The position numbers and the translations under genes are program-made. DNA of 34,580 nt from Solirubrobacterales bacterium (GTDB lineage: Bacteria; Actinomycetota; Thermoleophilia; Solirubrobacterales; Solirubrobacteraceae): positions 1 through 34,580 of the forward strand of contig JAFAXX010000170.1 in assembly GCA_019240655.1 (NCBI GenBank), written 5' to 3'. The notes under the pieces are model-generated. The model ran no database searches, was not told the DNA's origin, and saw only the letters and a program-made list of their open reading frames with translations. Positions 17,892 through 34,580 of this stretch are shown here, one piece after another (the first letter of the stretch is position 1; every line of letters begins with the position of its first letter).

Positions 17892-19334
17892 CTAATCCCC
17901 CAACTCGACCCGCCGGCGCGCGACGAACTCCTGGAGCTCGTCGCGCACGGCGTCGTCGAGCGGGGGCGGCTCGTAGCGCTCGAGGGTGGCCCGCCAGATC
18001 TCGGCCGCGCGGGCGGTGGTGTCGCGCGCGCCGCGCTTGCTCCAGCGGTCGAAGTTCTCGGTCGAGGAGAGCAGCGGGCGGTAGAAGCACTCGCGGAAAC
18101 GCTCGAGGGTGTGGGCGGCGCCGAGGAAGTGGCCGCCGGCCCCGACCTCGGCGTGCGCCCCGAAGGCGAGCGACTCGTCGTCGATCTCGAGCGGGGTGAA
18201 CTCGTGGCGGAGCTCGCGCAGCAGCTCGATGTCGACGATGAACTTCTCATAGCAGGAGACCAGCCCGCCCTCGAGCCACCCGGCCGAGTGCATCACGAAG
18301 TTGGCGCCGGCGAGGAACGTGGGCAGGAAGGTCATGAGCGACTCGTAGGCCGCCTGCGCATCGACCGTCTGGGAGGCGTTGAGCGCGCCGCCGCCGCGCC
18401 ACGGCAGCCCGAACCGCCGCGCGATCTGACCGGTGCAGAGCACGCCGATGCCGGACTCCGGGGTGCCGAACGAGGGCGAGCCCGACTGCATGTCGGTGTT
18501 CGAGAGGAAGGAGCCGAAAACCACCGGGCACCCCGGCCGGATCAGCTGTGCGAGCGCGATCCCGGCCAGCGCCTCGGCCATCTGCTGCACCAGCGTCGCC
18601 GGCAGAGAGACCGGGGACATCGCCCCCATGAGCAGGAACGGGGTGATGACCACGGCCTGGCCCGCGTTCACGTACTCGAACATCGCCGCCAGCATGCGGT
18701 CGTCGTAGCGCAGCGGCGAGTTCACGTTGATCAGGCTGATCGAGACCGGGGCGCGCTCGATCGCGTCGCGGCCGCCGAACAGGATCTCGCCCATCCGGAT
18801 CGTGTCGGCGGCATTCCGCCCCGACGTGACCGAGCCCATATACGGCTTGTCGGAGAGGGTCTGGAGCGCGTAGACCATGTCCAGGTGGCGGGAGTCGAGC
18901 GGCCGGTCCTCGGGCTCGCAGATCGTCCCGCCCGGCGAGTCGAGCTCGGGGAAGGTCTGGGCGAGCCTGACCAGGTTCTCGAAGTCCGCCATCTTGGCAT
19001 CGCGCCGGGTGTCGCCCTCGCGGATGAACGGACAGCCGTAGACGGGGGCGAACACCATGTGCTCACCGCCTATGTGGGCGGTGTGTTCGGGGTTGCGGGC
19101 CTGGAGCTCGAACTCCCGCGGGGCCTTGGCGACCTGCTCGAGGATGAACTCCGGGTCGAAGCGGACGCGGTTGTCGTCCTCGACGACCTGACCGGCGGCG
19201 CGCAGCAGCTCGACCGCTTCCGGAAACAGGAACTCGATCCCGAGCTCTGAGACGATCCGGCGCCAGCCTCGGTCGAGCGTGGCCATCGCGTCCTCACTGA
19301 GGACCTCGTAGCGCGGCATGGCGTTGACGAACAC
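17892..19334 (-). CDS. MttB-superfamily corrinoid methyltransferase, non-pyrrolysine
   Basis: A 480-residue protein of the trimethylamine methyltransferase (MttB, COG5598) superfamily, a TIM-barrel that moves a methyl group from a quaternary amine to Co(I) of a partner corrinoid protein. Recognisable stretches: GIEFLFPEAVELLRAAGQVV, then VFAPVYGCPFIREGDTRR, later GSFLSNTDMQSGSPSFGTPE and NFVMHSAGWLEGGLVSCYEK. The frame is complete with no internal TAG; its TAG (17894-17892) is the terminal stop, so this is the non-Pyl branch that includes the glycine-betaine enzyme MtgB and related proteins. Start is GTG 19334, 5 bases after GAGGAGG. It diverges from the iclR-corrinoid pair across 56 bases, the expected partner. 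Substrate unproven; glycine betaine or another betaine is likely. Confidence 0.9.
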   Translation of the reverse strand: MFVNAMPRYEVLSEDAMATLDRGWRRIVSELGIEFLFPEAVELLRAAGQVVEDDNRVRFDPEFILEQVAKAPREFELQARNPEHTAHIGGEHMVFAPVYGCPFIREGDTRRDAKMADFENLVRLAQTFPELDSPGGTICEPEDRPLDSRHLDMVYALQTLSDKPYMGSVTSGRNAADTIRMGEILFGGRDAIERAPVSISLINVNSPLRYDDRMLAAMFEYVNAGQAVVITPFLLMGAMSPVSLPATLVQQMAEALAGIALAQLIRPGCPVVFGSFLSNTDMQSGSPSFGTPESGIGVLCTGQIARRFGLPWRGGGALNASQTVDAQAAYESLMTFLPTFLAGANFVMHSAGWLEGGLVSCYEKFIVDIELLRELRHEFTPLEIDDESLAFGAHAEVGAGGHFLGAAHTLERFRECFYRPLLSSTENFDRWSKRGARDTTARAAEIWRATLERYEPPPLDDAVRDELQEFVARRRVELGD

Positions 19335-19354
19335 GGCGGCCTCCTCGATTGCGC

Positions 19355-19390
19355 TTGACCTCAGGGCGTGCCTGCGTAATATATCCGTTC
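19355..19390 (+). promoter_or_regulatory. Leaderless-type promoter of first iclR gene
   Basis: TTGACC (19355-19360), a 16-base spacer and TAATAT (19377-19382) form a strong sigma70-like promoter. Transcription would begin about 7-9 bases beyond the -10, at or next to the ATG at 19391, so the mRNA should be leaderless. The same 56 bases must also hold the promoter and GAGGAGG site of the divergent MttB-like gene. Confidence 0.65.
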
Positions 19391-20191
19391 ATGGAACAAG
19401 AGTTTCAAGTATCCCGAGGCCCCGCGGCGGCCCCCGGCGTGGCCGCGGTCGACCGCGGAGCCGAACTGCTCCTCCGCGTGCTCGAGAGCGAGGCGCCGGT
19501 CGGGTTGAGCGAGCTGGCCGCGGCCACCGGCATACCCAAGAGCACGGCGTCGCGGCTGGTGAGCGCGCTCGAGCGCCGAGGCCTGATCGAGCAGGACGGC
19601 GAGCGCGGCCGCCTGCGCCCCGGGCCCGCGATCCTCCGCGTGGCCGAGCGCGGGATGCTCGAGCGCAACGTCATCGAGCTCTCCCGGCCTTCGCTCGACG
19701 CGCTGGCCGAGGCATCGGGCGAGACGATCAACCTGGCCCTGGCCGCGCTCGGCGGTGTCGAGCACGTGGCCCAGGTCGACGGCCGATACTTCCTCGGCAC
19801 CGGCCAGTGGCTCGGTCGCCTGGTCGACTACCACTGCACGGCGACCGGCAAGGTGTTCATGGCCCTGGGGCGCTCACCGCTGCCGGCGAGCCCGCTGCCC
19901 CGCCACACGCCGGCGACGATCACCGACCCGGCGGCGCTCGAGGCAGTGCTCGAGACCGTCCGGGACGAGGGCGTTGCGATCGCTGTCGACGAGCTCGAGC
20001 AGGGAGTCGCGGCGATCGGCGCGCCCGTGTACGGCGGGCGCGGAGACGTGATCGCGGCCGTGAGCATCTCCGGTCCGACGATCCGCATGACCCCGGCCCG
20101 GATCGGCGAGCTGACGCCCGTCCTGATCGACGAGACGCGGGCCCTCAGCCGCCGCCTCGGCCACCGTGAACAAGGAGAACTAGCCGCATGA
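19391..20191 (+). CDS. IclR-family regulator (arm 1)
   Basis: A 266-residue IclR regulator. Residues about 15-80 are the winged helix (LSELAAATGIPKSTASRLVS and GLIEQDGERGRLRPGP); the rest is the IclR ligand domain with GETINLAL, GTGQWLGRLVDYHCTATGKV and the terminal VYGGRGDVIAAVSISGP. I choose ATG 19391, since the promoter -10 ends 8 bases before it and an earlier in-frame start would lie inside the promoter. Its stop overlaps the corrinoid protein's ATG (ATGA), so regulator and corrinoid protein are co-translated. It diverges from the MttB-like gene, which it probably regulates together with its own operon; the ligand may be the methylated substrate. Confidence 0.9.
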   Translation: MEQEFQVSRGPAAAPGVAAVDRGAELLLRVLESEAPVGLSELAAATGIPKSTASRLVSALERRGLIEQDGERGRLRPGPAILRVAERGMLERNVIELSRPSLDALAEASGETINLALAALGGVEHVAQVDGRYFLGTGQWLGRLVDYHCTATGKVFMALGRSPLPASPLPRHTPATITDPAALEAVLETVRDEGVAIAVDELEQGVAAIGAPVYGGRGDVIAAVSISGPTIRMTPARIGELTPVLIDETRALSRRLGHREQGELAA

Positions 20192-20853
20192 CGCATGAGG
20201 AGACCCTGCAGCTGCTCTACGACGAGACCCTCGTCGGCAATGCCCCCGTTGTCGCCGACGCGGTCAACCAGGGGCTCGCTTCCGGGCTCGAGCCCGAGCG
20301 GATGCTCTATGACGCGCTCATCCCCTCGCTCGAGGAGGTCGGCGCGCGGTTCGAGCGGGGCGACTACTTCGTCCCCGAGATGCTGATCGCCGCCCGCGCG
20401 ATGCAGGGGGCGCTCGACATCCTCCGGCCACTGCTGGCCGACACCGGGACCGCGGAGGTGGGGACGTTCGTGATGGGCACGGTCAAGGGCGACGTGCACG
20501 ACATCGGCAAGAACCTGTGCAACATCATGCTCGAGGGCGCCGGCTTTCACGTGATCGATCTCGGGGTGAACGTCGCCCCGGAGCGGTTCGTCGCCGAGGT
20601 GGAGGAGCACCAGCCGGACATCGTCGGCTTCTCGGCCTTCCTGACCACGACCATGCCGATGTTTAAGGCGAACATCAACGCGCTCGAGAAGGCCGGTCTG
20701 CGCGATCAGGTGATCGTGATGGTCGGCGGCGCGCCGGTCACCCAGGAGTACGCCGACGCGGTCGGCGCCGACGGCTACTCGGCCGATGCATCGTCGGCGG
20801 TCAAGAAGGCCAAGCAGCTGATCCAGCTGCGGCGCGAGGCGGTGGCGGCGTAA
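20188..20853 (+). CDS. Corrinoid (B12-binding) methyl-carrier protein, arm 1
   Basis: A 221-residue corrinoid protein of the MtaC/MttC/MtgC type. Residues about 1-85 are the helical cap domain (B12-binding-2) and about 90-215 the Rossmann-like cobalamin domain. The signature DVHDIGKN supplies lower-axial ligand His104; SAFLTTTMP and VMVGGAPVT are the other cobalamin-tail contacts. The protein carries the methyl group from a substrate-specific methyltransferase to the pterin enzyme. It overlaps the iclR gene by 4 bases; the MttB-like gene is divergent, the MeTr-activator operon starts 301 bases downstream. A near-twin lies at 28489-29154 with about 74% ungapped identity. The TAA stop sits in the first unit of a tandem repeat. 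Confidence 0.95.
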   Translation: MTHEETLQLLYDETLVGNAPVVADAVNQGLASGLEPERMLYDALIPSLEEVGARFERGDYFVPEMLIAARAMQGALDILRPLLADTGTAEVGTFVMGTVKGDVHDIGKNLCNIMLEGAGFHVIDLGVNVAPERFVAEVEEHQPDIVGFSAFLTTTMPMFKANINALEKAGLRDQVIVMVGGAPVTQEYADAVGADGYSADASSAVKKAKQLIQLRREAVAA

Positions 20854-20954: not shown

Positions 20955-20956
20955 AG

Positions 20957-21154: not shown

Positions 21155-22042
21155 ATGGATACAGTGCTTCGGTCGCGGTCGAAGACCGTCGCGATCGGCG
21201 CCGAGCAGCCGTTCTGCATCATCGGTGAGCGAATCAACCCGACCGGCCGCAAGGCCTTCGCCGAGCAGCTGAAGGGCGGCGATCTGAGCACCGTGGTCAT
21301 CGACGCCCGGGCCCAGGTCGAGGCCGGCGCCGACATGCTCGATGTCAACGCGGGGATCCCGCTCGTCGACGAGCCCGAGCTGCTCAAGGCGATGCTGCAG
21401 ACGGTCCAGGCGGCCGTCGATGTGCCGATCTGCATCGACTCATCCGTGATCGAGGCGCTCGACGCCGGCCTGACGGTGTACGAGGGCCGGGCACTGGTCA
21501 ACTCAGTGACCGCCGAGGACGAGCGCCTGGAGGAGATCCTCCCGCTGGTGGCCCGGCACGGCGCAGCGGTGATTGGTCTGGCCAACGACGAGACGGGAAT
21601 ACCCGAAACGGCGCAGAAGCGACTCGAGTGCGCGCGCAAGATCCTGAGCGCGGCGGATGATCACGGCATCGCGGCAGAGGGCGTCTTGATCGATCCGCTG
21701 GCGATGACCGTCGGCGCCGACACCGACGCAGTCACGACGACGCTCCGGGCCATCCGCCTGATTCGTGATGAGCTCGGCGTCAACATGTGCCTGGGCGCCT
21801 CCAACGTGTCGTTCGGGCTGCCGGAGCGTCCTGCGCTCAACGCCGCCTTTCTTCCCATGGCGATCAGCGCCGGCCTGACCAGCGCGATCATGTCGACGGC
21901 TGAAGTCTGCGTGCAGAGCGTCCGCGCGAGCGACCTCTTGCTCGGGCATGATCCGTGGGGGACGAACTGGATCGCCGCGCACCGCCTTCGGCAGGCTTCG
22001 GCCAAGGCCACCACCATCGACCGGGAGAGCGCGGCGGCTTGA
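21155..22042 (+). CDS. Methyltetrahydrofolate:corrinoid methyltransferase (MtgA/MtvA-like)
   Basis: A 295-residue pterin-binding TIM barrel of the dihydropteroate-synthase/MeTr family. It should pass the methyl group from the corrinoid protein to tetrahydrofolate. Conserved pieces in order: IIGERINPTGRKAF, GADMLDVNAGIPLVDE, PICIDSS, LVNSVTAE, VLIDPLAMTVGAD and CLGASNVSFGLPERPALN, the last being a strong MeTr hallmark that dihydropteroate synthases lack. ATG 21155 follows AAGGGAG with good spacing; an earlier ATG in the frame has no such site. First gene of a coupled operon with the activator and DUF1638 genes. It is the only MeTr in the window, so it probably serves both corrinoid proteins. 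Confidence 0.93.
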   Translation: MDTVLRSRSKTVAIGAEQPFCIIGERINPTGRKAFAEQLKGGDLSTVVIDARAQVEAGADMLDVNAGIPLVDEPELLKAMLQTVQAAVDVPICIDSSVIEALDAGLTVYEGRALVNSVTAEDERLEEILPLVARHGAAVIGLANDETGIPETAQKRLECARKILSAADDHGIAAEGVLIDPLAMTVGADTDAVTTTLRAIRLIRDELGVNMCLGASNVSFGLPERPALNAAFLPMAISAGLTSAIMSTAEVCVQSVRASDLLLGHDPWGTNWIAAHRLRQASAKATTIDRESAAA

Positions 22043-23937
22043 GCCAGTCGACGCCACCACGTTCCCGGCAGCCGTTGAGCCCGCCGCTCCAGCCGCGTCC
22101 CGCAGACGGCGCGGAGCGAGTGCGGCTGCGCTTCGTGCCCGAGGGCGCCGAGGTGCGGGTGCCGAGCGGGACTCCGGTGTTCGACGCCGCCAGCTGGAAC
22201 GGGATTGCCATCGACTCAACCTGCGGCGGTCACGGCACCTGCAAGAAGTGCAGGGTCCGCGTCGTCTCCGGCGAGTTGCCGGTCGACACCGTCGACCCGC
22301 GGGCGTTCACGGCTGAGGAGCTGAGGGACGGCTGGCGGCTGGCCTGTCGGGCCAGCGCTCGGGACGATCTGGTCGTCGAGGTGCCGCCGCTGCAAACGCG
22401 CCCCAAGGCGGCGCTGGCGGGTGTAGGACGTCATGTCATCCTGCGCCCGTCGGTGCAAAAGCGCCACCTCTTGCTTCCCGAGCCCTCGCTGGAGGACCAG
22501 CGACCCGACCTCCAGCGTGTGCTCGACGCACTCGACGACCTCGAACCGAAGGCGTCGATCGAGCTGCTGCGGACCCTCGGCGGAACTATGAGAGCGGCCG
22601 ACTTCGACGTCACCGCGGTGATCTGCGATGAGGACTTGATCGATCTCGAGCCCGGCGACACCACCGACCGGCGGTTCGCAATCGCCTTCGACCTCGGGAC
22701 GACGACCGTGGTGGCCACGCTGGTCGACCTCGAGAGCGGCCAGCCGGCGGCGGTGCGCTCGATGCTCAACCGACAGCAGCCGTTCGGCGCCGACGTAATT
22801 ACTCGCATTTCGACCACGATGCTGGACCCTCAGGCGTTGTCCACCCTTCAGGAACGAGCGCACGAGACGATGGCCGAGCTGACCGAGGAGGTCTGCGCCG
22901 AGGCAGGAGTCGATCCTGCCGAGATCTACGAGATCACCGTATGCGGCAATGTCACGATGATGCAGCTGGCCCTCGGGATCGATCCCGAGCCCCTGTCCAT
23001 GGCGCCCTTCATCGTCGCCGCGCACAGCTTCCCGTCGGCTCGCGCACGGGACTTCGGCGTGCAGGTCCATCCTCGCGCCCCGGCCTTCATCTTTCCTTCG
23101 CTGGGCGCCTATGTCGGCGGAGACATCGTGGCCGGAATGCTGGCCACCGGGTTGACTCGCGACCGCCGGCTGCGCATGTTCATCGATGTTGGCACGAATA
23201 GCGAGATCGCCGTGGGCTCCAACGAACGCGTGCTGGCCTGCGCTGCGCCCGCCGGTCCGGCGTTCGAGGCGGCGCAGATCAAATGCGGGATGCGCGCGGC
23301 GGAGGGCGCGATCGAGGGCGTGAGGATCGACGACGACGACATCGGCCTGGAGGTCATCGGCAGCACGGACGCCGTGGGAATCTGCGGATCGGGTCTCGTC
23401 GACGCCGTGGCCGAGCTCGTTCGCTGCGAGCTGCTCGACCACACCGGCCGGTTCGTCCCCGACGAGCTCGCCGCCGAAATTCATCCTGGGCTGGCTTCTC
23501 GGTTGACTCGAGTCGGAAAGGAACGAGTGTTCGTTCTGCATTGGCGAGGCGACGACCCCAGCGCTTCCGTGTTCCTGTCCCAGCGCGACGTCCGTGAGCT
23601 GCAATTCGCCAAGGCCTCGATTGCCACCGGCTGGCACATCCTCCTGCGCGAGCTCGGCATCGAGGCCGGGGACATCAGCCAGGTGCTGCTGGCGGGAAGC
23701 TTCGGCGCCTACCTGACCCCGCTCAGCGCGGTGCGCATAGGGTTGGTGCCGAAGCTGGCGCTCCCGCGGATCATCTCGGCCGGCAATGTCGCCGGCGAGG
23801 GCGCCAAGATCGCGACGCTGTCCTACCGTGAACGCGCCGAGACCCAGTCGATCCTGCGCGAGGTCGAGTACGTTGAGCTGTCCGGCCGCGCGGACTTCAA
23901 CGACCTGTTCGTCGACCAGCTGGCCTTCCCGGGATGA
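22039..23937 (+). CDS. Reductive activator of corrinoid proteins (2Fe-2S + ASKHA, RACE/RamA-like)
   Basis: A 632-residue protein that restores oxidised Co(II) corrinoid to active Co(I) using ATP. The N-terminal ferredoxin-like domain has four cysteines, 62, 68, 71 and 103, in a C-x5-C-x2-C-x31-C pattern of a plant-type 2Fe-2S cluster. After a linker, residues about 210-620 are the DUF4445/ASKHA ATPase domain: AIAFDLGTTTVVATLVDLES, then FIDVGTNSEIAVG and LLAGSFGAYLTP. This is the bacterial 2Fe-2S type rather than the archaeal 4Fe-4S RamA. The start is TTG 22039, which overlaps the MeTr stop as TTGA; a GTG at 22121 is an alternative but would leave a very short ferredoxin lead. Followed by DUF1638 with ATGA overlap. 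Confidence 0.92.
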   Translation: MSQSTPPRSRQPLSPPLQPRPADGAERVRLRFVPEGAEVRVPSGTPVFDAASWNGIAIDSTCGGHGTCKKCRVRVVSGELPVDTVDPRAFTAEELRDGWRLACRASARDDLVVEVPPLQTRPKAALAGVGRHVILRPSVQKRHLLLPEPSLEDQRPDLQRVLDALDDLEPKASIELLRTLGGTMRAADFDVTAVICDEDLIDLEPGDTTDRRFAIAFDLGTTTVVATLVDLESGQPAAVRSMLNRQQPFGADVITRISTTMLDPQALSTLQERAHETMAELTEEVCAEAGVDPAEIYEITVCGNVTMMQLALGIDPEPLSMAPFIVAAHSFPSARARDFGVQVHPRAPAFIFPSLGAYVGGDIVAGMLATGLTRDRRLRMFIDVGTNSEIAVGSNERVLACAAPAGPAFEAAQIKCGMRAAEGAIEGVRIDDDDIGLEVIGSTDAVGICGSGLVDAVAELVRCELLDHTGRFVPDELAAEIHPGLASRLTRVGKERVFVLHWRGDDPSASVFLSQRDVRELQFAKASIATGWHILLRELGIEAGDISQVLLAGSFGAYLTPLSAVRIGLVPKLALPRIISAGNVAGEGAKIATLSYRERAETQSILREVEYVELSGRADFNDLFVDQLAFPG

Positions 23938-24551
23938 CCGCCGGGGTGATCGCCTGCGGAGCGCTTGCCGCCGAGGTCGGTGCGGTGGCGCGGCGGCGCC
24001 AGTGGCCGGTCGCGATCCATCCGCTTCCCGCCCTGCTGCATAACCAGCCCGAGCGCATCGCGCCCGAACTCGAGCGGCAGCTGCGTCGGCTCTGCGATCG
24101 CTATGAGCGGGTCGCCGTGGCTTACGGAGACTGCGGCAGCTACGGCGCGATCGACGAGGTGCTGCGCCGCTTTGGCGTCGCGCGGCTGCGCGGCGACCAC
24201 TGCTACGACGTATTCGCGCGCGAGGAGGTGAGCGCCGCGCTCGAGCAGGAGCCGGGCACCTATTTCCTCACCGACTTCCTGGCCCGGACGTTCAGGTACA
24301 CGGTGGTCCGTGAACTTGGCCTCGACCGCTACCCGGAGCTTCGGGACGAATACTTTCGTCATTATCGCCGCGTTCTCTGGCTCGCGGGGCGACCCACCCC
24401 GGCGACCAGGGCGGCGGCGGAACGGGCGGCGGACATCCTGCAGCTGCCGCTGTTCGTCCGCCGTGTTGGCACGACAGGTCTCGAACGGCAGCTGGCTGAG
24501 CTTCTGGGCCAGGACACAGAAGAGCCGGCGCTCACTCCGCTGTCTGGGTGA
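23934..24551 (+). CDS. DUF1638 protein of the methyltransferase operon
   Basis: A 205-residue protein of the DUF1638 family. It begins MTAGVIACGALAAEVGAV, and has the family's Gly/Cys loop VAYGDCGSYGAIDEVL and GDHCYDVFA. DUF1638 genes repeatedly sit beside corrinoid methyltransferase and activator genes in anaerobes, but no biochemical role is known to me. Conserved cysteines (IACGA, GDCG, DHCYD) could bind a metal or cofactor; that is a guess. It overlaps the activator gene by 4 bases, so it is translated with it, and ends 1 base before the convergent DUF4432 gene, with no room for a dedicated terminator. Confidence 0.85.
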   Translation: MTAGVIACGALAAEVGAVARRRQWPVAIHPLPALLHNQPERIAPELERQLRRLCDRYERVAVAYGDCGSYGAIDEVLRRFGVARLRGDHCYDVFAREEVSAALEQEPGTYFLTDFLARTFRYTVVRELGLDRYPELRDEYFRHYRRVLWLAGRPTPATRAAAERAADILQLPLFVRRVGTTGLERQLAELLGQDTEEPALTPLSG

Positions 24552-25673
24552 CTAAGGTCGCTCGCTGGAACGCGCCGAGCTGACCATGCGCGTCACCCGT
24601 GCAGCGAAGGCGTCGATCTCCTCCGGGCCGACCAGCGCTCCGAGCTCGAGGTCGTATCCGCGCCGCTCGCCCGGCTCCAGCTCGATCAGCTCGGCCCGGA
24701 CGCGAGCGTCCAGACGGCCCTCGATGCGGTTGGTGCAGGGCTCGATGCCTACGACATAGGTCCCTTCACCGAGCATCCGCCACAAGAAGTGGTGGGGAAG
24801 CTGTCGGTGGTTGAACACCTCGTAGGCTCCGAGCTGCAGCTCGCGGTTGACGACCGCCACGGGAACCGAGCCGTCGGCCTCACCGGCCAGCTCGTGCTCG
24901 AACGCTTGCTCGACGAAGTTTCGTCGCGGCCCGTGCATCCTGCGGTAGCCCTCGACCTGATCGGTGCCGCGCACGCTCACCCGCGTGGCGGGGACCGCGA
25001 GCTCGGCGCCCTCGTCGACCACGGGCCAGCCGAGGTTGACGTGGTAGAGCAGCATGTGCGGCGTCAACGAGTGGCCGATGTTCTCGACCTCGTCGCGAAT
25101 CCTCAGTCGTGATTCACCCACCCGAGACTCGATCGAGCGACGCAGGAGCAGCTGCTCGCCGAACACCGAGGCCTGCACCACCTCGCCGGTCGCCCAGAGC
25201 ACGCATTCGTCCCCGTCCCACCGCTCGCCGTAGCCGATCAGCTTCGCCGGGCGGTTCGAGACGCGTCCGTGCAGGCCATAGTCTTCATACGGCTTCGGCG
25301 GGTAGTGGTACTGCTCCGCGGTGTCCCGAGCCATGAACAGGGCGTGGTCGAGCCCGCATGTTGTCAGCAGTCCGCCGCCGAAGCTGCGCATGAAGCCAAG
25401 CCCACCGGGCTCGTAGTACCAGGGTCCCGAGAACCCAACCGGGGACTGCCACGCCAGAGCCATGCCGGCGAATTCGCAGCGACCGATGTCGAACGCCCGG
25501 TCGACGATCACGTCGAAGGCAAAGCCGGTGCCGGTGCGGAACTCGAGGACCCGCACCCCGCGCTCGCTGCCATCGGCCAAGGTAACCGCGCGTACCCCAG
25601 CCAGCTGCTCCAGGCGTCCGATTCGCTTCAGCAGATCGGTTCGCGTGAAGGCCTGTCCGCGGAGGCTCGGCAT
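24552..25673 (-). CDS. DUF4432 aldose-1-epimerase-like protein
   Basis: A 373-residue protein of the DUF4432 branch of the galactose-mutarotase-like beta-sandwich superfamily. Visible features: FDVIVDRAFDIGRCEFAG, LGFMRSFGGGLLTTCGLDHA, GLHGRVSN and MLLYHVNLGWPVVDEGAE, matching the conserved Arg, His and Glu/Asp region of mutarotase-like folds. DUF4432 members occur in sugar and polyol catabolic clusters; their reaction is generally unassigned, mutarotation or isomerisation of an unusual sugar being the usual guess. It is the last of four genes (isomerase/epimerase, Gfo/Idh, SDR, this) separated by 8-12 bases, a single operon reading away from the corrinoid 2 gene. Confidence 0.85.
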   Translation of the reverse strand: MPSLRGQAFTRTDLLKRIGRLEQLAGVRAVTLADGSERGVRVLEFRTGTGFAFDVIVDRAFDIGRCEFAGMALAWQSPVGFSGPWYYEPGGLGFMRSFGGGLLTTCGLDHALFMARDTAEQYHYPPKPYEDYGLHGRVSNRPAKLIGYGERWDGDECVLWATGEVVQASVFGEQLLLRRSIESRVGESRLRIRDEVENIGHSLTPHMLLYHVNLGWPVVDEGAELAVPATRVSVRGTDQVEGYRRMHGPRRNFVEQAFEHELAGEADGSVPVAVVNRELQLGAYEVFNHRQLPHHFLWRMLGEGTYVVGIEPCTNRIEGRLDARVRAELIELEPGERRGYDLELGALVGPEEIDAFAARVTRMVSSARSSERP

Positions 25674-27534: not shown

Positions 27535-27542
27535 CGCACGAC

Positions 27543-28364
27543 CTAGGCCCGCACAGAGATCTCCCGCATGATCTCTGCGGTGTTGTCGTAGGCCTGCTGA
27601 GCCCATTCGACGATCTTGTCTGGATCGGGGGAGTACTCGAGCTCGATCGACACCGTCCCGTCGTACCCCGTGTCGCGGATCGCCGACAGGTACTCCTTGA
27701 TCGGTGTCACACCCATCCCGGCCGGCAGATCGCCATGAACCTTTCCGTCGCAGTCCGAGAGGTGGATGTGACCGATCAGCCCTTTCAACTCGTTGACGTC
27801 GTCAAACGAGGCATCGGACAGATGCAGATGGGAGATGTCGGCATTGGCGCGCACCGCGGGGTGATCGATCTCCTGCACGAACCGCACCAGCTCATGCACA
27901 TCCTTCAGCAGTGCCTGTTCGAAGGGCTCCAGCTCCAGGACGACCTCGAGGCCCTTGGACTGCGCATATTCGCCGGCCTCCGTCACCATCTCCTTGGCCA
28001 GATCCCAGATGGCTTCATTCGGGAACACCTCGCCGTCCCAGAAGTACTCGCCCACGACCAGCAGCACGTTGCGCGCGCCGAAGAAGGCTCCCTGGTCGAC
28101 GTAAGCCTTGATCCGGTCGAGGGTGAAGCGGCGCACCGACGGGTTGAAGTCCACGATCCCGAACGCGACGCAAACGACGGATCGGATCGGCAGTCCGACC
28201 TCGGCGGCCGTCTGCCTGATCTCCTCGCGCTCGGCGTCATTCAGGTCGAGCGGGTCCTCGAAGATGTCGTACGTGTCAAACCCGATCCGCTTGGCCGTAC
28301 GGATGCCTTGGAGCCGGTCCACCTTCGTGTCGAGCCACGTGGAGCTGATCATCCCCAATTCCAT
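27543..28364 (-). CDS. Sugar phosphate isomerase/epimerase (AP-endonuclease-2 TIM barrel)
   Basis: A 273-residue xylose-isomerase-like TIM barrel. The expected metal ligands are in place: VVLELEPFE (Glu), ANADISHLHLSD (Asp and His), IGHIHLSDCDGKVHGDLPAG (His) and SIELEY (Glu). Relatives include inosose dehydratase (IolE), IolI and 3-keto-sugar isomerases or epimerases. The ATG at 28364 is preceded by AAGGAGG (28376-28370) and by a good promoter, so this is the first gene of the four-gene catabolic operon. Together with Gfo/Idh, SDR and DUF4432 it points to cyclitol or sugar breakdown through an oxidised keto intermediate; the exact substrate is open. Confidence 0.9.
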   Translation of the reverse strand: MELGMISSTWLDTKVDRLQGIRTAKRIGFDTYDIFEDPLDLNDAEREEIRQTAAEVGLPIRSVVCVAFGIVDFNPSVRRFTLDRIKAYVDQGAFFGARNVLLVVGEYFWDGEVFPNEAIWDLAKEMVTEAGEYAQSKGLEVVLELEPFEQALLKDVHELVRFVQEIDHPAVRANADISHLHLSDASFDDVNELKGLIGHIHLSDCDGKVHGDLPAGMGVTPIKEYLSAIRDTGYDGTVSIELEYSPDPDKIVEWAQQAYDNTAEIMREISVRA

Positions 28365-28488: not shown

Positions 28489-29154
28489 CTATGCCGGCGT
28501 CAAGGCCCGACGCTCGTCGAGCAGTTGCTTGGCCCGCTTGGTTGCGCCTGCGGCATCGGCCGAGTAACCGTCGGCTCCGACCGCGTCGGCGTATTCCAGC
28601 GTCACCGGCGCCCCCCCGACCATGATGATGACCTGCTCCCGCAGCCCGGCCTTGGTGATCGCCTCGATGTTCGCCTTGAACATCGGCATCGTCGTGGTCA
28701 GGAAGGCCGAGAAGCCGACCACGTCCGGGTCGTGCTCGCGGATCGCCGCCACGAAGGTCTCGGGCGCCACCTGCACGCCGAGGTCGACGACCTTGAAGCC
28801 TGCGCCCTCGAGCATGATGTCGACGAGGTTCTTGCCGATGTCGTGGACATCGCCCTTTACGGTCCCCATCAGGAACGTGCCGATCGTCTGCGCGCCGGTG
28901 TTGGCCAACAGCGGACGCAGGATATCCAGCGCTCCGCTCATGGCCCGGCCGGCAATCAGCATCTCGGGCACGAAGAAGTCGCCGCGCTCGAAGCGCGCGC
29001 CCACCTCCTCCAAGGCCGGGATCAGAGCCTCGAACAACATCGTCTCGGGGCCGAGGTCCGCCGCCAGGCCCTGCTCGGTGAGCTCGAGCACAGACGGCTT
29101 GTCTCCCACGAGGGTGCGGTCGTAGAGCTGCGTGAGGATCTCGTCGTGGGTCAT
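28489..29154 (-). CDS. Corrinoid (B12-binding) methyl-carrier protein, arm 2
   Basis: A 221-residue twin of the protein at 20188-20853: same length, no gaps, about 164 identical residues by hand count. Cap domain about 1-85, cobalamin domain about 90-215, with GTVKGDVHDIGKNL (axial His104), SAFLTTTMPMFKANI and MVGGAPVT. It should accept a methyl group from a dedicated methyltransferase, here probably the UroD-family enzyme encoded 1.8 kb away, and pass it to the shared MeTr. Its ATG overlaps the iclR stop by 4 bases exactly as in arm 1, so the iclR-corrinoid pair looks like a duplicated cassette. Differences concentrate in the cap (residues 21-40) and the C-terminal tail. Confidence 0.95.
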   Translation of the reverse strand: MTHDEILTQLYDRTLVGDKPSVLELTEQGLAADLGPETMLFEALIPALEEVGARFERGDFFVPEMLIAGRAMSGALDILRPLLANTGAQTIGTFLMGTVKGDVHDIGKNLVDIMLEGAGFKVVDLGVQVAPETFVAAIREHDPDVVGFSAFLTTTMPMFKANIEAITKAGLREQVIIMVGGAPVTLEYADAVGADGYSADAAGATKRAKQLLDERRALTPA

Positions 29155-29930
29155 GTGACTCGGTTGCCTCCGTTGGGTACCGCGCAGATCGTTCTGGTCA
29201 GCGCCTGGGTGCTGAGCACCACCTCTTCAGCCAGCTCCCGCAGGCGCCCGCGGGTCGTCCGGGCGGTGGGCGCGGAGACGGAGATCGCGGCGATGACCGT
29301 GGCCTTCGAGGTGAACACCGGCGCGGCGGCCGAGCAGAGCCCGGCGTCGAGCTCCTCCCAGGTCGTGGCGTAGCCGCGCTTGCGCACGCTCTCGAGCTCG
29401 CCCAAGAGATCGGCGACGCTCGTGATTGTGTTGGGACCCAGCTTCTCCAGCCGGCCCGTGGGTGGCTGAGATGCACCGAACGCGATGAACACCTTGCCGA
29501 GCGACGATGCGTGAGGCGGGATCCTCCGGCCGACCCAGTTGCCGGCGCCGAGCGGATGGTGGCTGTCCACCTGGGCCAGCCGCGCCACGCCGCTCGGGGT
29601 GGGGATGGCAATGTTCGCCGTCTCGCCGGTGCGCTCCTCGAGCGCCTCGAGGTACGGCAGCGCAAGGGTGGCGAGATCCCCGATGGCACTGTCCCGCTGA
29701 GCGTAGTCCACCAACACCGGCCCGGGCCGGAAGCCGCCGCCGGGCTGGCGCTGGGCCAGGCCGTTACGCTCGAGCGCCCGGAGCAGGCGCGCCGCGGTGG
29801 ACTTCGGTAGCCGCGTCTCGGCCATCACCGCCGATAGGGAAACCGGCTGGTCGCGCTCGACGAGTCGGACCAGAACGCGTGCCGCTCGTTCGATTGACTG
29901 GGCGCCGGCCTCTGGTACCATCCGGGCCAC
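29151..29930 (-). CDS. IclR-family regulator (arm 2)
   Basis: A 259-residue IclR regulator: winged helix at about 10-75 (LSAVMAETRLPKSTAARLLR, GGGFRPGPVL), ligand domain after (TGETANIAIP, GAGNWVGRRIPPHASSLGKV, VFTSKATVIAAISVSAP). It is homologous to the arm 1 regulator but clearly more diverged than the corrinoid twins. The start is GTG 29930 or, three codons later, ATG 29921; the predicted -10 is adjacent to the GTG, so a nearly leaderless mRNA starting at the ATG is the better guess. Coupled (ATGA) to the corrinoid 2 gene. The operator-like motif covers its promoter and start, suggesting autoregulation. Confidence 0.9.
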   Translation of the reverse strand: MARMVPEAGAQSIERAARVLVRLVERDQPVSLSAVMAETRLPKSTAARLLRALERNGLAQRQPGGGFRPGPVLVDYAQRDSAIGDLATLALPYLEALEERTGETANIAIPTPSGVARLAQVDSHHPLGAGNWVGRRIPPHASSLGKVFIAFGASQPPTGRLEKLGPNTITSVADLLGELESVRKRGYATTWEELDAGLCSAAAPVFTSKATVIAAISVSAPTARTTRGRLRELAEEVVLSTQALTRTICAVPNGGNRVT

Positions 29931-29959: not shown

Positions 29960-29969
29960 ACGATCAGTG

Positions 29970-30932
29970 CTACCCGGCCGTCCTCCACGTGGTGAGGCCC
30001 TGATGTTCGGTGCGGACCGCCAGGCCGGTTTCGACAGCGAGGTCCAGGTGGGCGCCAACGGAGCGCGCGAGCTCCACCGCCATTTCGGCGAACGGCCCGA
30101 GCGCGTGATCGGCAACGCGCCAGAAGTGCTCGAGCCGCTGTGGCCGGGGCCCGAGCTCGCTGCGCAGGCATTGGTCGAGATCGTCGACGAAACGCTCGCT
30201 CGCGTCGAGGAATGTGGTCACCTCCCCGCGGCCCTCGATCGGCGGGTAGTGGCTGGTGCCCAGACGTTCCGGGGCCAGGTCACGCAACCGCCCGATCGTC
30301 CCGCGGTAGCTCTCCACCGAACTGTAGGGCGGCGGGCCGACGAGGTCACCCGCCGTTGTGTAGAGGCCGCGTTCCAGCACCGCGTCGATCACGATCGCGG
30401 TGCCGCTGGGCGGATGCCAAACTCCCAGATGTCCCGGCGAGTGCCCCGGGAGCCCGAGCACCTCGAGCTCGATCGCGCCGAGGTCCAGCGTTTCGCCCGC
30501 CTCGATCGCTTCGTCGAGGGTGGTGTCCGGTCCGGCGGCGTCACGCAGCCAGTTCCAAGTGCTCTCGTCGTAATCGAGTCCCTGGCCCCGGTACCACCCA
30601 TACCGCTCGCGAGAGATCACCTCCCAGCGCTCGAGCCAGTCTCGATCGTGCGCGGAGGCTCGCAGGCGGGCCTTCGGCGCCAATCGCCGGAGCTCGGCGT
30701 TGCCGCCGTAATGGTCCACGTCGGCATGGGAGATGAGGACCTCGTCGACATCGGCCAGCTGTCGGCCGAGTTCGGCCAGCGCGGGAGCGATCACGTTCCC
30801 GGCCGTCCCGTGAACCCCGGTGTCGACGAGGAGCAGCCGGTCGTCGCCGGCCACGAGCCACTGTGCGAAGCGCCGTACGCCCAATGTGGAGGAGATGCGA
30901 TAGATGCGAGGTTGGACTTCTTCGATGGACAC
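29970..30932 (-). CDS. Metallo-beta-lactamase-fold hydrolase
   Basis: A 320-residue MBL-fold protein. The metal motif is SHADVDHYGG, i.e. HxDxDH where the textbook form is HxHxDH; later ligands are GLPGHSPGHLGVW (His), VIDAVLERG (Asp) and TSHYPP (His). Relatives include lactonases, glyoxalase-II-like thioesterases and many of unknown substrate. The start is GTG 30932, giving MSIEEVQPRIYRI, a normal beginning for the fold. It diverges from the UroD-family gene over 66 bases and precedes the iclR-corrinoid 2 pair by 39 bases with a separate promoter between. A lactone hydrolase acting on an oxidised sugar would fit the neighbours, but that is inference. Confidence 0.88.
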   Translation of the reverse strand: MSIEEVQPRIYRISSTLGVRRFAQWLVAGDDRLLLVDTGVHGTAGNVIAPALAELGRQLADVDEVLISHADVDHYGGNAELRRLAPKARLRASAHDRDWLERWEVISRERYGWYRGQGLDYDESTWNWLRDAAGPDTTLDEAIEAGETLDLGAIELEVLGLPGHSPGHLGVWHPPSGTAIVIDAVLERGLYTTAGDLVGPPPYSSVESYRGTIGRLRDLAPERLGTSHYPPIEGRGEVTTFLDASERFVDDLDQCLRSELGPRPQRLEHFWRVADHALGPFAEMAVELARSVGAHLDLAVETGLAVRTEHQGLTTWRTAG

Positions 30933-30998: not shown

Positions 30999-32168
30999 GT
31001 GACCACTGCGGAGCGAACGCGCATCGCGTTCAAACACGGCACGCCGGACCGGGTGCCGGTTCATTGCTGGCTGGGGCTTCCGCTGATCCGCGAGCTCAAG
31101 CCGAAGGACAAGTCGATGCTGGACATGCTGCATTGGTGGATCGACGATCCGATGGGGTCGATCGTGAAGATGCAGCAGTCGCTCGGACTGGATCCGATGA
31201 TCACCACCTACAGCCAACACATCGGCGAGCACGAGATCTGGCCGCGCATGCTGTTCCCGCGCCCGTTCGAAACCGACGACTGGGTGGAGACGTTCGAAGA
31301 GACCGGACGCGGAGATGGGTGGCGCGAGCACGCCCACCGCATATGGACCCCGGACGGGGAGCTCGACTACTCGTATCGGACCGAGGACGGTTTCGGCACC
31401 TCCTGCCACGACTTCTTGCTCAAAGGCGATGAGCCCGAGCGCAAGCTCGAAGCGTTCCGGCACTTCCCCTCGGCTGATCTGTACGACATGTCGGTGCTGC
31501 GCAGCGTGGTCGAGAAGGTCGGCGAGGAGGCGTGGTGGCTGCATCACGTAGTCGGTCCCTGGGACATGGCCGCCGAGGTGCGTGGCCTGGTCGATCTCTC
31601 GATGGACGTGTACGACCGCCCGGCTTTCGTCCACGATCTGATGCGCTTTTGCACCGACTGGTTGAAGGGCTTCTACCGCCGGCTCGGGGAGGCCGGGATC
31701 CATTCGATTTCCATGAATGAAACGTGGGTCGGTGTCGGCGTCGCCCCACAGCACTTCCGCGAGTTCATGAAGCCCTACGACGCCGAATGCGTGCAGGCGG
31801 CGCACGAGGCCGGCTACCTGGTGAGCTTCCACAACTGCGGGCGCGCCACCCTGCTGCTCGAGGATATGGCCGACACCGGTCCGGACGCCGTCGAGACGCT
31901 GACCTCCAACCGGTCCTCTGGCGACGTGGACCTCGCGGACGCCAAGCGACGGATCGGGGACCGAGTCTGCCTGTTCGGAGGCTTCAACGAGCACCTGCTC
32001 CACGAGGCCGACGCCGACGCCGTACGCGAGGAGGTCAAGCGCTGCCTCGACGACGCGATGGAGGGCGGCGGGTACATCCTGCGCTCCACCGGGCAGATCT
32101 TCAACGCCAAGCCCGGCTTGATCGAGGTCATGTGTGAGACGGCCCGCGACCTCGGCCGCTATCGGTGA
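30999..32168 (+). CDS. UroD-family corrinoid methyltransferase (candidate MT1)
   Basis: A 389-residue member of the uroporphyrinogen-decarboxylase/MtaA superfamily, a TIM barrel that in methyl metabolism carries a zinc-activated methyl donor or acceptor. It is not a HemE: the heme-substrate loop is lacking. The opening ERTRIAFKHGTPDRVPVHCW is the family N terminus. H278 and C280 (SFHNCGRAT) form the HxC zinc motif; the third Cys usual in a later GGF-LS-GC segment is replaced by Gln in GGGYILRSTGQIF. GTG 30999 follows AGGAGG. With a corrinoid gene and an ABC sugar-type importer as neighbours, it probably demethylates an imported O-methyl compound onto corrinoid protein 2. A methylcobamide:CoM-like role is unlikely since no CoM genes appear. 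Confidence 0.85.
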   Translation: MTTAERTRIAFKHGTPDRVPVHCWLGLPLIRELKPKDKSMLDMLHWWIDDPMGSIVKMQQSLGLDPMITTYSQHIGEHEIWPRMLFPRPFETDDWVETFEETGRGDGWREHAHRIWTPDGELDYSYRTEDGFGTSCHDFLLKGDEPERKLEAFRHFPSADLYDMSVLRSVVEKVGEEAWWLHHVVGPWDMAAEVRGLVDLSMDVYDRPAFVHDLMRFCTDWLKGFYRRLGEAGIHSISMNETWVGVGVAPQHFREFMKPYDAECVQAAHEAGYLVSFHNCGRATLLLEDMADTGPDAVETLTSNRSSGDVDLADAKRRIGDRVCLFGGFNEHLLHEADADAVREEVKRCLDDAMEGGGYILRSTGQIFNAKPGLIEVMCETARDLGRYR

Positions 32169-32440: not shown

Positions 32441-32505
32441 CTTTTTGTGTCGACGATCTGATAGGAAGCGCCGGTCAGGTACGTCTACTCCGAGGAGGGG
32501 TGTCT

Positions 32506-34161
32506 GTGGTCGTCTCGGATCGCAATGGTGAGCCACGGGAAGGCGAAGGCGAAGAGAGCTCGCCGGCGGCGACGCTAACGCGCGCGCAGCTGATCAAGGG
32601 GGCAGCTGCCCTGGGGGTCGGGGCCATCGTGGGCGGTTGCGGATCTTCGTCGTCATCCTCCTCGCCAACGACCTCCGGCGCCACCAACGGCCTGCCGAGC
32701 GGGGTAGTCGGCGGTCCCACTGGCTTCGCCGGGGCCGAGCGCTACCAGTACGGCGCCGACACAGCCGCCGGACGGGCAGTCGAAGGGCTCAAGCGCTTGA
32801 CCAACAACGGCCGCAAGCAGATCACCCTGAACATGCGAATGTGGAGCGGCGCCACCGGTCAGCTTACGGTGCCGTTTCCGAAGGGCGCCCCGGCGGTGGC
32901 CGAGCTGCTGCAGAAGGAGACCGGGGTCAAGCTCAACCTCGTGGCCATCGATCCCACGACCCAGATCGCCAAAAATCTGCAGACGATCGCCACGCGCGAC
33001 GGGTCAAACCACATTCTCGTTACCTCGATCGAGGACAACGGTGACTATGCCGAGGCCGGGCTCGCCCTGAAGCTCGACGAGTTCATGAACAAGTACCAGC
33101 CGGACTGGTCAAATGACTATGTCGGCGGCCCCGCGCAGGTCGCGATGATGACCCAGTACGGGGGAAGCACGTACGCCGTCTCGATGGACGGCGACTACCA
33201 GGTGTGGGGCTACCGGATGGATCTGTTCGAGGACTCCAACAACCAGCGCGATTTCAAAGCCAAGCACGGCTACGACCTCGCCTTCCCGAAGACCTGGTCA
33301 CAGCACGCAGACGTCGCCGCGTTCTTCACACAGCCGAACAAGAAGCTGTACGGCTCCGTCGATCTCAAGAACCCGTACTGGGGCTACGTCAACTGGATGA
33401 TGCGCTACGTGAGCGCCGGAAGCCCCAATCAGCAGTACTTCGACCAGAATGCCAAGCCCTTGATCGACAGCCCGGCCGGCATCCAGGCGACCAAAGAACA
33501 CGTAGCCTCGATGGCCTGGACCTATCCGGACACCCTGTCCAAGAGCTGGCCTGAGGAGTACGCCACGATGGGCGCGGGCGGAGCCGCGATGGGGTCATTC
33601 TTCTCCAACGTGACGAAGTTCATCACTGCGGGCAGCCCACTCGACAAGGGGTACGGGAAGTACATCCGTACGACGCTGCCGCCGGGCCGGATGGTCAACG
33701 GAAAGCTCGTACAGCGGTCGGTCATCTACTTCAACAACCAGTTCGTCGTCAACGCTTTCTCCGATCCGAGCCTCCACGAGGCGGCCTACCTGGTGTTGCA
33801 GTGGCTGAGCTCCAAGCACGTCTTCGACTGGCTGACCGGCAACCCGGCCGGTTACATGGATCCGAACCGGGTCAGCGCGCTCGACGATTCCCTCGTGCGC
33901 AGCAGCTACAAGCCCTACGCGTGCGATGAGCTCAAGACCATCATCCCACACACGGCGCCCCCGATTCTGTCGATCCGCGGCGCGCGCGAGTACACCCAGG
34001 CCCTCGACAACAACTTGCAGAAGGCTTTGACGAAGCAGATCACCCCTGAGCAGGCGATGTCGCAGACGGCCGCGTCGTGGGAGGCGATCACCAACCGAAT
34101 CGGCCGCCAGAAGCAAATCGCCGCCATCAAGGCGAGCCAGCCCGCCTGGCCGACAGCCTAG
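32506..34161 (+). CDS. ABC transporter substrate-binding lipoprotein, family 1 (sugar type)
   Basis: A 551-residue extracellular solute-binding protein. The N-terminal segment LTRAQLIKGAAALGVGAIVG ends in a lipobox GGC with Cys45, then a Ser-rich linker, so it is a membrane-anchored lipoprotein. The mature part shows the two-lobe periplasmic-binding pattern of the carbohydrate (CUT1-like) group, for example FPKTWSQHADVAAFFTQPNK and AAYLVLQWLSSKHVFDWLTG. GAGGAGG at 32492-32498 is too close to GTG 32500 but well spaced for GTG 32506, which I choose. A partial permease gene starts 6 bases after its stop. It likely imports the carbohydrate-like methylated substrate of the arm 2 enzymes; size and long insertions suggest an oligosaccharide or glycoside is possible. 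Confidence 0.9.
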   Translation: MVVSDRNGEPREGEGEESSPAATLTRAQLIKGAAALGVGAIVGGCGSSSSSSSPTTSGATNGLPSGVVGGPTGFAGAERYQYGADTAAGRAVEGLKRLTNNGRKQITLNMRMWSGATGQLTVPFPKGAPAVAELLQKETGVKLNLVAIDPTTQIAKNLQTIATRDGSNHILVTSIEDNGDYAEAGLALKLDEFMNKYQPDWSNDYVGGPAQVAMMTQYGGSTYAVSMDGDYQVWGYRMDLFEDSNNQRDFKAKHGYDLAFPKTWSQHADVAAFFTQPNKKLYGSVDLKNPYWGYVNWMMRYVSAGSPNQQYFDQNAKPLIDSPAGIQATKEHVASMAWTYPDTLSKSWPEEYATMGAGGAAMGSFFSNVTKFITAGSPLDKGYGKYIRTTLPPGRMVNGKLVQRSVIYFNNQFVVNAFSDPSLHEAAYLVLQWLSSKHVFDWLTGNPAGYMDPNRVSALDDSLVRSSYKPYACDELKTIIPHTAPPILSIRGAREYTQALDNNLQKALTKQITPEQAMSQTAASWEAITNRIGRQKQIAAIKASQPAWPTA

Positions 34162-34167
34162 GGTGGA

Positions 34168-34580
34168 GTGGAGCAGCACGCGCACTCGACGGCTCGGAGG
34201 CCCGCGGAGACGCGGTGGCTGAGCCGTACCGCCATAGGGGCACGTTCCACCAAGCAGATGTCCCGGCTGCTGATCGCGCCGGGGCAACTGCTGCTGTTGT
34301 TCCTGGTCGGCTTCCCCGCCCTGGTGGCGATCTACGTCAGCCTGACGAACTGGTCGCCGACCAACGGCCATGCCTGGTACCAGGCCTACCGCGACGTCAC
34401 CAGCTATGGGTTGAACAATTACTGGAACGCCCTCCGCGGCAGCGAACTGTGGTCGGCGATCCTGCGGACTGTCGAGGTGACCGTCCTGGCGGTCGGCGTC
34501 GAGTTCCTGCTCGGCTTCGCCCTCGCCCTGTTGTTCGTCAGAGAGTTCCGCGGGCGGAGCCTGCTCACGGTCGTGTTTCT
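34168..34580 (+). CDS. ABC sugar transporter permease, MalF/UgpA type (partial)
   Basis: The gene runs off the window; 137 codons are visible from GTG 34168, or from ATG 34258 if the basic 30-residue lead is not translated. The first membrane helix is LLIAPGQLLLLFLVGFPALV, followed by the familiar IYVSLTNW, an external loop with NNYWNAL, and a second helix starting ILRTVEVTVLAVGVEFLLGF before ALALLFVREFRGRS. This order is standard for the first permease of CUT1-type importers. It belongs with the upstream binding protein; the second permease and ATPase are presumably beyond the edge. Confidence 0.88.
   Translation, partial: MEQHAHSTARRPAETRWLSRTAIGARSTKQMSRLLIAPGQLLLLFLVGFPALVAIYVSLTNWSPTNGHAWYQAYRDVTSYGLNNYWNALRGSELWSAILRTVEVTVLAVGVEFLLGFALALLFVREFRGRSLLTVVF

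Follow-up and report, generated by a model that had tools for sequence, protein, structure and literature searches.

The aerobic environmental bacterium Ruegeria pomeroyi demethylates glycine betaine through MtgB, MtgC and MtgD, and its set comprises an MttB-superfamily methyltransferase, a corrinoid protein, a methyl-corrinoid:tetrahydrofolate methyltransferase (MeTr), RamA and DUF1638 (PMC12478193). Fitness data from Phaeobacter tie DUF1638 to B12 reactivation together with RamA-like proteins (PMC5764234). In Eubacterium limosum, three MttB-type enzymes, MtpB, MtcB and MtyB, charge one corrinoid protein, MtqC, with one MeTr, MtqA, so the design of several inputs to one MeTr is already known (PMC12155760). 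Here we analyse a whole contig (C157) of 34,580 nucleotides, hereafter the window, from a Solirubrobacterales metagenome-assembled genome (MAG), in which an MttB-type arm (arm 1) and a UroD-type arm (arm 2) lie beside a single MeTr and a single RACE/RamA-type ATP-dependent corrinoid activator (RACE). A sequence-only reading of this stretch had proposed that two methyl sources feed one methyl-tetrahydrofolate outlet and had associated such systems with acetogens and methanogens; the set reported in Ruegeria shows that they are not confined to these organisms.

The explanation that we favour, with a modest lean, is that a glycine betaine module (arm 1) has been joined by an imported O-methyl-sugar arm (arm 2), which would share the MeTr, RACE and DUF1638 of arm 1. 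MttB would move a methyl group from glycine betaine to the corrinoid protein Cor1, MeTr would pass it from Cor1 to tetrahydrofolate, and RACE, together with DUF1638, would rescue oxidised cobalt. In arm 2, an adjacent ATP-binding cassette (ABC) transporter would import an O-methylated sugar, sugar acid or cyclitol, which would be demethylated by UroD and a second corrinoid protein, Cor2, in a module linked to the regulator IclR2; epimerase, dehydrogenases, DUF4432 and lactonase-like proteins would then process the demethylated sugar. Cor2 would most likely be served by the MeTr, RACE and DUF1638 of arm 1, because, unlike the arm-2 modules of some relatives, that of the window has no MeTr or RACE next to it, and since Cor1 and Cor2 are 75% identical, common use of these proteins is a plausible and the simplest reading. 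Methyl-tetrahydrofolate from both arms would be oxidised by a MetF-MetV fusion encoded on another contig. We infer the substrates, the acquisition of arm 2, the cross-reaction of MeTr and RACE with Cor2, and the direction of flow.

The gene map, built from a codon-position scan and Pfam, has intact gene frames, and all named families match at the coordinates given here with scores far above the Pfam cut-offs. The MttB gene (17892..19334, minus strand; PF06253, 625 bits against a cut-off of 25) is divergent from a plus-strand run (19349-24551) of IclR1 (19349..20191; PF01614 and PF09339, 61-75% identical to genus copies in the same place), Cor1 (20188..20853; PF02607 and PF02310), MeTr (21155..22042; PF00809, and NCBIfam PRK07535 at 313 bits, cut-off 259), RACE (22039..23937; Fer2 with RACo linker, middle and C-terminal domains) and DUF1638 (23934..24551; PF07796, 93 bits). 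The last of these, a partner of RamA-like activators that lies directly behind RACE, was absent from the gene list of the sequence-only reading; the components which that list did hold, i.e., MttB, UroD, two corrinoid proteins, two IclR regulators, one MeTr and one activator, were all recovered by Pfam. Convergent with this run, a minus-strand series (24552-30932) carries DUF4432, an SDR dehydrogenase, a GFO/IDH/MocA oxidoreductase, a TIM-barrel epimerase, Cor2 (28489..29154; PF02607 and PF02310), IclR2 (29151..29930) and a metallo-beta-lactamase-fold (MBL) hydrolase. Divergent from the MBL gene, UroD (30999..32168; PF01208), a solute-binding protein gene and a probable permease start occupy the plus strand up to the contig end at 34580. 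The two corrinoid proteins each contain one DxHxxG motif (DVHDIG at residue 102), and the two IclR regulators are 42% identical. Within the arm-1 block, Cor1 and MeTr are separated by a 301-base gap (20854-21154), which corresponds to about 1.3 kb between matches in three related loci (L041, L044 and L051; L, G and C numbers are our handles for loci, genomes and contigs).

Phylogeny assigns the two corrinoid proteins to different arms and the outlet to arm 1. Cor1 groups with same-genus arm-1 copies (support 97/96) and Cor2 with arm-2 copies (97/92). Three arm-2 MeTr proteins form a clade of their own (100/100) with the window MeTr outside it; the latter is placed with same-genus copies by its path and by 83% identity, although not within any small set of good support. 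The window RACE falls inside a 13-row arm-1 group (92/98), and the arm-2 RACE proteins form a separate group (98/98). The trees exclude a MeTr segment from L051 and a RACE segment from L040, in each of which a stop interrupts the tblastn match; several of the rows sit on long branches, and in the RACE tree these are flagged as meeting. As the window MeTr and RACE are of the arm-1 type and the arm-2 MeTr is missing, arm 2 has here lost, or never brought, its own outlet, and the only outlet found is that of arm 1.

In line with this, the MAG (191 contigs, 91.5% complete, estimated contamination 4.4%) yielded no second intact MeTr or RACE gene; the case that would refute the sequence-only reading, a separate pair dedicated to arm 2, was thus looked for in this MAG and not found. 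It holds one MttB gene. PF00809 has four matches, namely the window MeTr, a MetH-like frame of 1243 amino acids (C1) and two proteins on C16 and C22 called FolP-like from score and frame alone; no second MeTr of the window's kind was found among them, nor was the arm-2 type MeTr known from relatives found in this MAG. The C22 protein was considered as a second MeTr and set aside as FolP-like, its pterin-binding domain (211 bits) lying in a frame of 672 amino acids. PF02607 matches five proteins: Cor1, Cor2, the MetH-like protein and two on C168 and C139, which were rejected as methyl carriers and are read as regulators, both bearing MerR DNA-binding domains. PF14574 matches the window RACE and a 32-position fragment on C21; the pieces of this candidate second RACE lie in different frames with an internal gap and make up no full frame, and we regard it as a decayed relic. 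The best piece of the relic (78-79 residues) is 58-61% identical to arm-1 RACE and 51-54% to arm-2 RACE, with three proteins compared in each case. As a side observation, the relic (C21:5227-5812, L054) shares its contig with a dimethylglycine-dehydrogenase-like gene of 841 amino acids and may be what remains of a second arm-1 locus. PF01208 is found only in the window UroD and a MetE-like protein.

The single outlet applies to the corrinoid step and not to the whole methyl-tetrahydrofolate pool, because the genome also has a LigM-like aryl O-demethylase gene (5tl4, E 5e-150) and further GCV_T-domain genes. The LigM-like gene is overlapped by the MetF-MetV fusion directly behind it (C142:23608-26617, corresponding to L129:5609-8618); the fusion measures 539 amino acids from its first start in an open frame of 653, and a MetF-like gene lies on C63. 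LigM-like demethylation is likely a third entry of methyl groups into methyl-tetrahydrofolate, and the pool may thus have at least three entries. Two further GCV_T-domain proteins, encoded on C124 and C155 (L130:3786-5492 and L131:4925-6289), have scores like that of the LigM-like one.

Among relatives, arm 2 appears as a separate module. UroD relatives at 69-85% identity occur in ten loci, four actinobacterial (two Thermoleophilia, two Actinomycetes) and six from Chloroflexota, two of which (L031 and L036) belong to one genome. The window UroD is present in 1 of 146 family genomes, i.e., this one, and in 5 of 399 genomes of the class, which is Thermoleophilia to judge by the relatives, the other four being of another family; the UroD-IclR2-Cor2 module was not found in the 145 other family genomes. 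Arm 2 is probably an acquired module, an island within the family. UroD is divergent from IclR2-Cor2 in all four actinobacterial loci, where the IclR2 copies are 70-73% identical to that of the window (L029, L030, L037 and L038). L029 continues from IclR2-Cor2 into MetV-MetF-MeTr-RACE, with RACE cut by the contig end, and L038 into MeTr-RACE; in the window, sugar genes occupy the place of these four L029 genes. In L030 the stretch breaks off at MetV, and a MetV-cluster gene, MeTr, RACE and DUF1638 are encoded on a different contig of that genome. MeTr thus stands beside the module in two of the four actinobacterial relatives, whereas the window copy retains Cor2 without a MeTr or RACE of the arm-2 type. 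In four of the six Chloroflexota loci no corrinoid, MeTr or RACE gene matching those of the window lies within the stretch; L036 has MeTr, and L033 has all of them. A plasmid location of UroD was considered and set aside: searches of 72,556 plasmid records gave one UroD match, at 28% identity, and 132 records with Cor2 relatives, all below 60%. Two further observations concern these relatives. In G154, a genome that also carries arm 2, a block of another kind on C217 (L083) unites MeTr, DUF1638, IclR and a corrinoid protein, with a flavin amine oxidase as neighbour, and two Chloroflexota loci (L032 and L033) contain several diverse UroD-superfamily paralogues, 24-31% identical to the window's, which suggests several methyl inputs there.

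These data bear on an alternative in which the MeTr and activator of arm 2 lie on a piece missing from the MAG, so that the two arms are independent and have nothing in common. We consider it unlikely, at about one chance in a few. In its favour, MeTr and RACE each occur in 4 of the 10 relative UroD loci within the fetched stretch, and the window contig ends 2.4 kb after UroD. By the same counts sharing would be a local state; the proposal of two methyl sources and one outlet is in part supported, agreeing with the content and phylogeny of this genome. However, in L029 and L038 both genes lie on the Cor2 side of the module, and that side is fully assembled in the window and holds the sugar genes; the missing arm-2 type MeTr points the same way. 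Two observations tell against the shared outlet. HemE was not found in the MAG though COX1 is present, and since the MAG is also only 91.5% complete, the absence of a second outlet is weak evidence. In addition, L037 (G153) has UroD, Cor2 and its own RACE, with only a 37%-identical MeTr elsewhere in the genome, indicating that the MeTr partnership is loose. The shared outlet of arm 1 nevertheless remains our preferred reading.

With respect to the substrate of arm 2, the UroD protein is a candidate O-demethylase of no named family. Pfam detects it through the C-terminal part of the family model alone (residues 165-383, 109.6 bits). Its best NCBIfam match, at 63 bits, falls short of the cut-off of 244, and the MtaA/CmuA family model TIGR01463 scores 50.6 bits, below its cut-off of 235.4. 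The predicted structure matches UroD and MtaA structures (Foldseek E 1e-13 to 4e-11), and a profile search gives weak matches to CdmB (E 0.0009) and MtaA 4ay7 (E 0.009). A metal-site rule that separates O- from S-demethylases has been described (PMC10418091). All 11 of the UroD relatives compared have His278-x-Cys280 and none has a cysteine in the last barrel strand, and by this rule the clade leans towards an O- rather than an S-substrate.

The genes around UroD suggest a sugar. In the window these are DUF4432, aldose-1-epimerase-like (24552..25673, minus; PF14486, 330 bits; PDB 3ty1); an SDR of the glucose-1-dehydrogenase subfamily (25686..26450, minus; PRK07231, 229 bits, cut-off 215); an IolG-like GFO/IDH/MocA oxidoreductase (26461..27606, minus; best NCBIfam model iolG at 109 bits, below its cut-off of 355), whose start may lie further in; a TIM-barrel sugar epimerase/isomerase (27543..28364, minus; PF01261, 124 bits; D-tagatose 3-epimerase structures, E 1.7e-17); and the MBL-fold hydrolase (29970..30932, minus; PF00753, 92 bits), possibly a sugar lactonase. 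Behind UroD follow an ABC solute-binding protein of the SBP_bac_1 type (32500..34161, plus; PF01547, 50 bits) and a gene start cut by the contig end (34168..34580, plus), probably an ABC permease: a Pfam scan of it gave no match, and tblastn places it at 35% identity in L032 and at 44% in L128 next to a solute-binding gene. Relatives of UroD in both phyla likewise sit among sugar-type genes, including SDRs, MBL, DUF4432, an IlvD/EDD-type dehydratase, zinc dehydrogenases, TIM epimerases, kinases, a DeoC-type aldolase and a LarA-like protein, which suggests that the substrate of arm 2 is probably an O-methyl sugar, sugar acid or cyclitol.

For comparison with the 10 relative UroD loci, a script picked 20 control stretches in the same genomes. 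MBL homologues occur in 4 of 10 loci and in none of the 20 controls (p 0.008), a dehydratase of the sugar-acid type in 4 of 9 loci and one control (p 0.022), and any of MBL, DUF4432 and dehydratase in 6 of 10 loci and one control (p 0.002). Queries taken from a relative were not counted at their own source locus, and the dehydratase query was trimmed of its first 110 residues, which overlap UroD in another frame. The controls are not neutral, having been drawn on contigs known mostly from MeTr matches, and mean stretch length was 16.5 kb for the loci and 20 kb for the controls. One control overlaps a known MeTr locus; its omission lowers the control counts of SDR from 4 to 3, of MeTr from 2 to 1 and of Cor2 from 3 to 2, and leaves MBL at 0 and dehydratase at 1. 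Enrichment is not significant for MeTr or for RACE, each present in 4 of 10 loci and 2 of 20 controls (p 0.14).

The single control with matches to the window GFO, TIM and solute-binding genes is a Chloroflexota stretch, L128 (G152, C104), whose contig also carries that genome's corrinoid/RACE/MetV/MetF/MeTr locus (L087). At 2256-7484 of L128, homologues of the window permease (44%), solute-binding protein (43%), TIM epimerase (42%) and GFO oxidoreductase (62% over 361 residues) follow in a row, with a further epimerase, GFO and RbsD/FucU genes beyond. About 8 kb from this cassette and in the opposite direction lie PfkB, RbsD/FucU, a UroD-family gene with 22% identity to that of the window, a corrinoid protein (62-64%) and RACE; this RbsD/FucU gene ends 15 bases before the UroD-family gene. 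Both phyla thus have this sugar cassette close to UroD and corrinoid genes, but the UroD gene concerned in G152 belongs to another clade.

Several results pull away from a sugar substrate or from the enzyme assignment behind it. The whole-protein UroD model is of moderate confidence (mean predicted local distance difference test score, pLDDT, 69.6), and the clade has other invariant cysteines at positions 218, 324 and 349. The dehydratase query was picked after seeing the loci. SDR (5 of 10 against 4 of 20, p 0.12), DUF4432 (2 of 10 against 0 of 20, p 0.10) and zinc dehydrogenase (3 of 9 against 2 of 20, p 0.29) are not significantly enriched, and the window GFO, TIM and solute-binding genes are each found in 0 of 10 UroD loci and 1 of 20 controls. 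The G152 cassette lies near a UroD-family gene that is not of the window's clade, which that genome carries elsewhere (L035).

Alternatively, arm 2 might act on no sugar at all but on a methoxylated aromatic compound, halomethane or methyl thiol, with the sugar genes as mere neighbours. The substrates described for corrinoid-dependent enzymes of the UroD superfamily are aromatic methyl ethers, halomethanes and thiols (PMC13222342, PMC10418091), weak profile matches link the window protein to CdmB and MtaA, and SDR and other sugar-type families are large and versatile. We nonetheless hold this account to be improbable, to much the same degree as a missing outlet, because MBL and dehydratase neighbours recur beyond the controls; DUF4432 is 62% identical to the copy in a Chloroflexota UroD locus (L036); kinases, an aldolase and epimerases lie near UroD in relatives; RbsD/FucU, UroD-family gene and corrinoid protein succeed one another in G152; and a LigM-like gene for aromatic ethers already exists in the genome. 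An O-methyl-sugar substrate is thus the reading that we retain. In a literature search, among the matches listed and as judged from titles and abstract openings, we found no published corrinoid route for the demethylation of methyl sugars or O-methyl-inositol, and none of the 10 matches listed of 80 in a separate search contained the word Thermoleophilia.

Arm 1, by comparison, is a genus-level block. Of the 146 family genomes, 15 have RACE; they comprise the MAG studied here, 13 of its 27 listed congeners and a single genome from a different genus. The order MttB-IclR1-Cor1-MeTr-RACE-DUF1638 is kept in 9 of 14 same-genus loci (DUF1638 being cut by the contig end in two), and the remaining five are cut by contig ends before MttB. 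The two arms thus differ in standing, arm 2 not having been found in the 145 other family genomes searched. The MttB protein has no in-frame stop and is not of the pyrrolysine type; the trimeth_pyl model scores 275 bits, below its cut-off of 525. It matches PDB entries 4yyc, 2qne and 9yce ("glycine betaine methyltransferase") at E 6e-125 or better over nearly its full length, residues 6-480 aligning with the solved enzyme 9yce (E 6e-125), and is probably a glycine betaine:corrinoid methyltransferase.

The left part of the window contains phosphate/polyphosphate and other genes, followed at 9221..14769 by a GMC oxidoreductase (minus), an amino-acid permease (minus), an aldehyde dehydrogenase (plus) and a GntR regulator (minus), all from Pfam. 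This set recurs in the same order beside MttB in G059 (L136) at 64-87% identity, with one extra IclR-like gene between, and probably represents choline-side supply genes of arm 1. Between it and MttB, a large LuxR-type regulator with TPR and AAA-like domains occupies 14861-18250, its longest frame overlapping the MttB 3' end. Longer MttB flanks were examined for seven same-genus genomes. BetA lies close to MttB in G082 (L045; 808 bits, equivalog cut-off 732), with copies at 86-87% in G073 and G081 (L047 and L134), and the window GMC protein scores 383 bits with the betA model, below that cut-off. A dimethylglycine-dehydrogenase-like gene, 72-80% identical to the C21 copy, lies near the block in G059, G070 and G067 (L042, L051 and L052); in the genome studied here it is on C21 and not on the window contig. 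NCBIfam MtgC models match the arm-1 block below cut-off (203 against 370 bits), while a separate corrinoid protein, a pterin-binding MeTr, a RamA-type activator and DUF1638 are all present. Because BetA, GMC and dimethylglycine-dehydrogenase-like genes neighbour the block in some relatives and MttB aligns with 9yce, arm 1 is read as a route from choline to glycine betaine to dimethylglycine, very probably with glycine betaine demethylated as in Ruegeria. Weighing somewhat on the other side, neither BetA nor the GMC set was seen in the fetched flanks of G063, G064 and G078.

A different role for the network, methionine synthesis rather than catabolism, has a precedent in Ruegeria, where a dual role is reported for MtgC/MtgD (PMC12478193), and the corrinoid proteins would then carry methyl groups to or from homocysteine. 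A protein with a homocysteine S-methyltransferase domain does lie near UroD, Cor, MeTr and RACE in one Chloroflexota locus (L033). However, the genome has its own MetH-like frame of 1243 amino acids and no homocysteine-binding domain was found in the window proteins scanned, and we rate this role as quite unlikely. Least probable of all is a chimeric or mis-binned contig joining loci of two organisms, which the absence of arm 2 from the rest of the family, the estimated contamination and a drop in third-codon-position GC content (0.88-0.96 up to Cor1, 0.81-0.91 after it) might suggest, but this drop starts inside the arm-1 operon (MeTr, RACE, DUF1638) and not at the DUF1638/DUF4432 border.

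Plant and microbial polysaccharides commonly contain O-methylated sugars. If arm 2 does act on such a compound, it extends the UroD methyltransferases to a further class of substrate and gives soil bacteria a one-carbon source. The locus also offers a clean test of modularity, with one MeTr, one activator and two corrinoid proteins of known relation. More broadly, it is tentatively possible, with rather more doubt than for this locus itself, that Actinomycetota and Chloroflexota demethylate O-methyl sugars, sugar acids or cyclitols by a corrinoid route through a distinct UroD clade, and that this route has here been imported and plugged into a glycine betaine outlet, giving a two-superfamily hub in a probable aerobe that drains through the MetF-MetV fusion. 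The CmuA/CmuB chloromethane system is used by aerobes.

Compared with described systems, arm 1 most resembles the Ruegeria MtgBCD set in its PF06253 enzyme, separate corrinoid and pterin-binding proteins, RamA-type activator and DUF1638, in an organism that has COX1, and in the choline-oxidation genes near the block in some same-genus loci (PMC12478193). In contrast to Ruegeria, the window genes form one tight block with an IclR regulator and have a second, UroD-type arm attached, and this genome encodes a MetH-like protein as well, with no homocysteine-binding partner among the window proteins scanned. The E. limosum hub shares the principle of several substrate-specific methyltransferases leading to one MeTr, with one activator (RamQ), yet there MttB-superfamily inputs act on a common corrinoid protein, whereas here two superfamilies have a corrinoid gene each (PMC12155760). 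UroD-superfamily methyltransferases such as the O-demethylases MtvB, OdmB, VdmB and MtoB, and CdmB, have the UroD fold and a separate corrinoid protein, and, like them, some relatives of the window UroD carry MeTr and RACE alongside; the window protein differs in its distant similarity (CdmB, E 0.0009), sugar-type neighbours, IclR regulator and lack of a MeTr of its own (PMC13222342). CmuA/CmuB also couples a UroD-type enzyme to a MeTr outlet, but CmuA is methyltransferase and corrinoid protein in one (PMC13222342), and such a fusion is not present here, UroD and Cor2 being separate genes. The type 1 mlp cluster combines several MtaA-like proteins with a corrinoid protein and RACE without MeTr (PMC10418091), whereas the window has one UroD gene and a MeTr. 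The less familiar features of this locus are the pairing on one outlet of two superfamilies that have a corrinoid protein each and, most notably, the association of a UroD arm with sugar genes, which recurs in two phyla.

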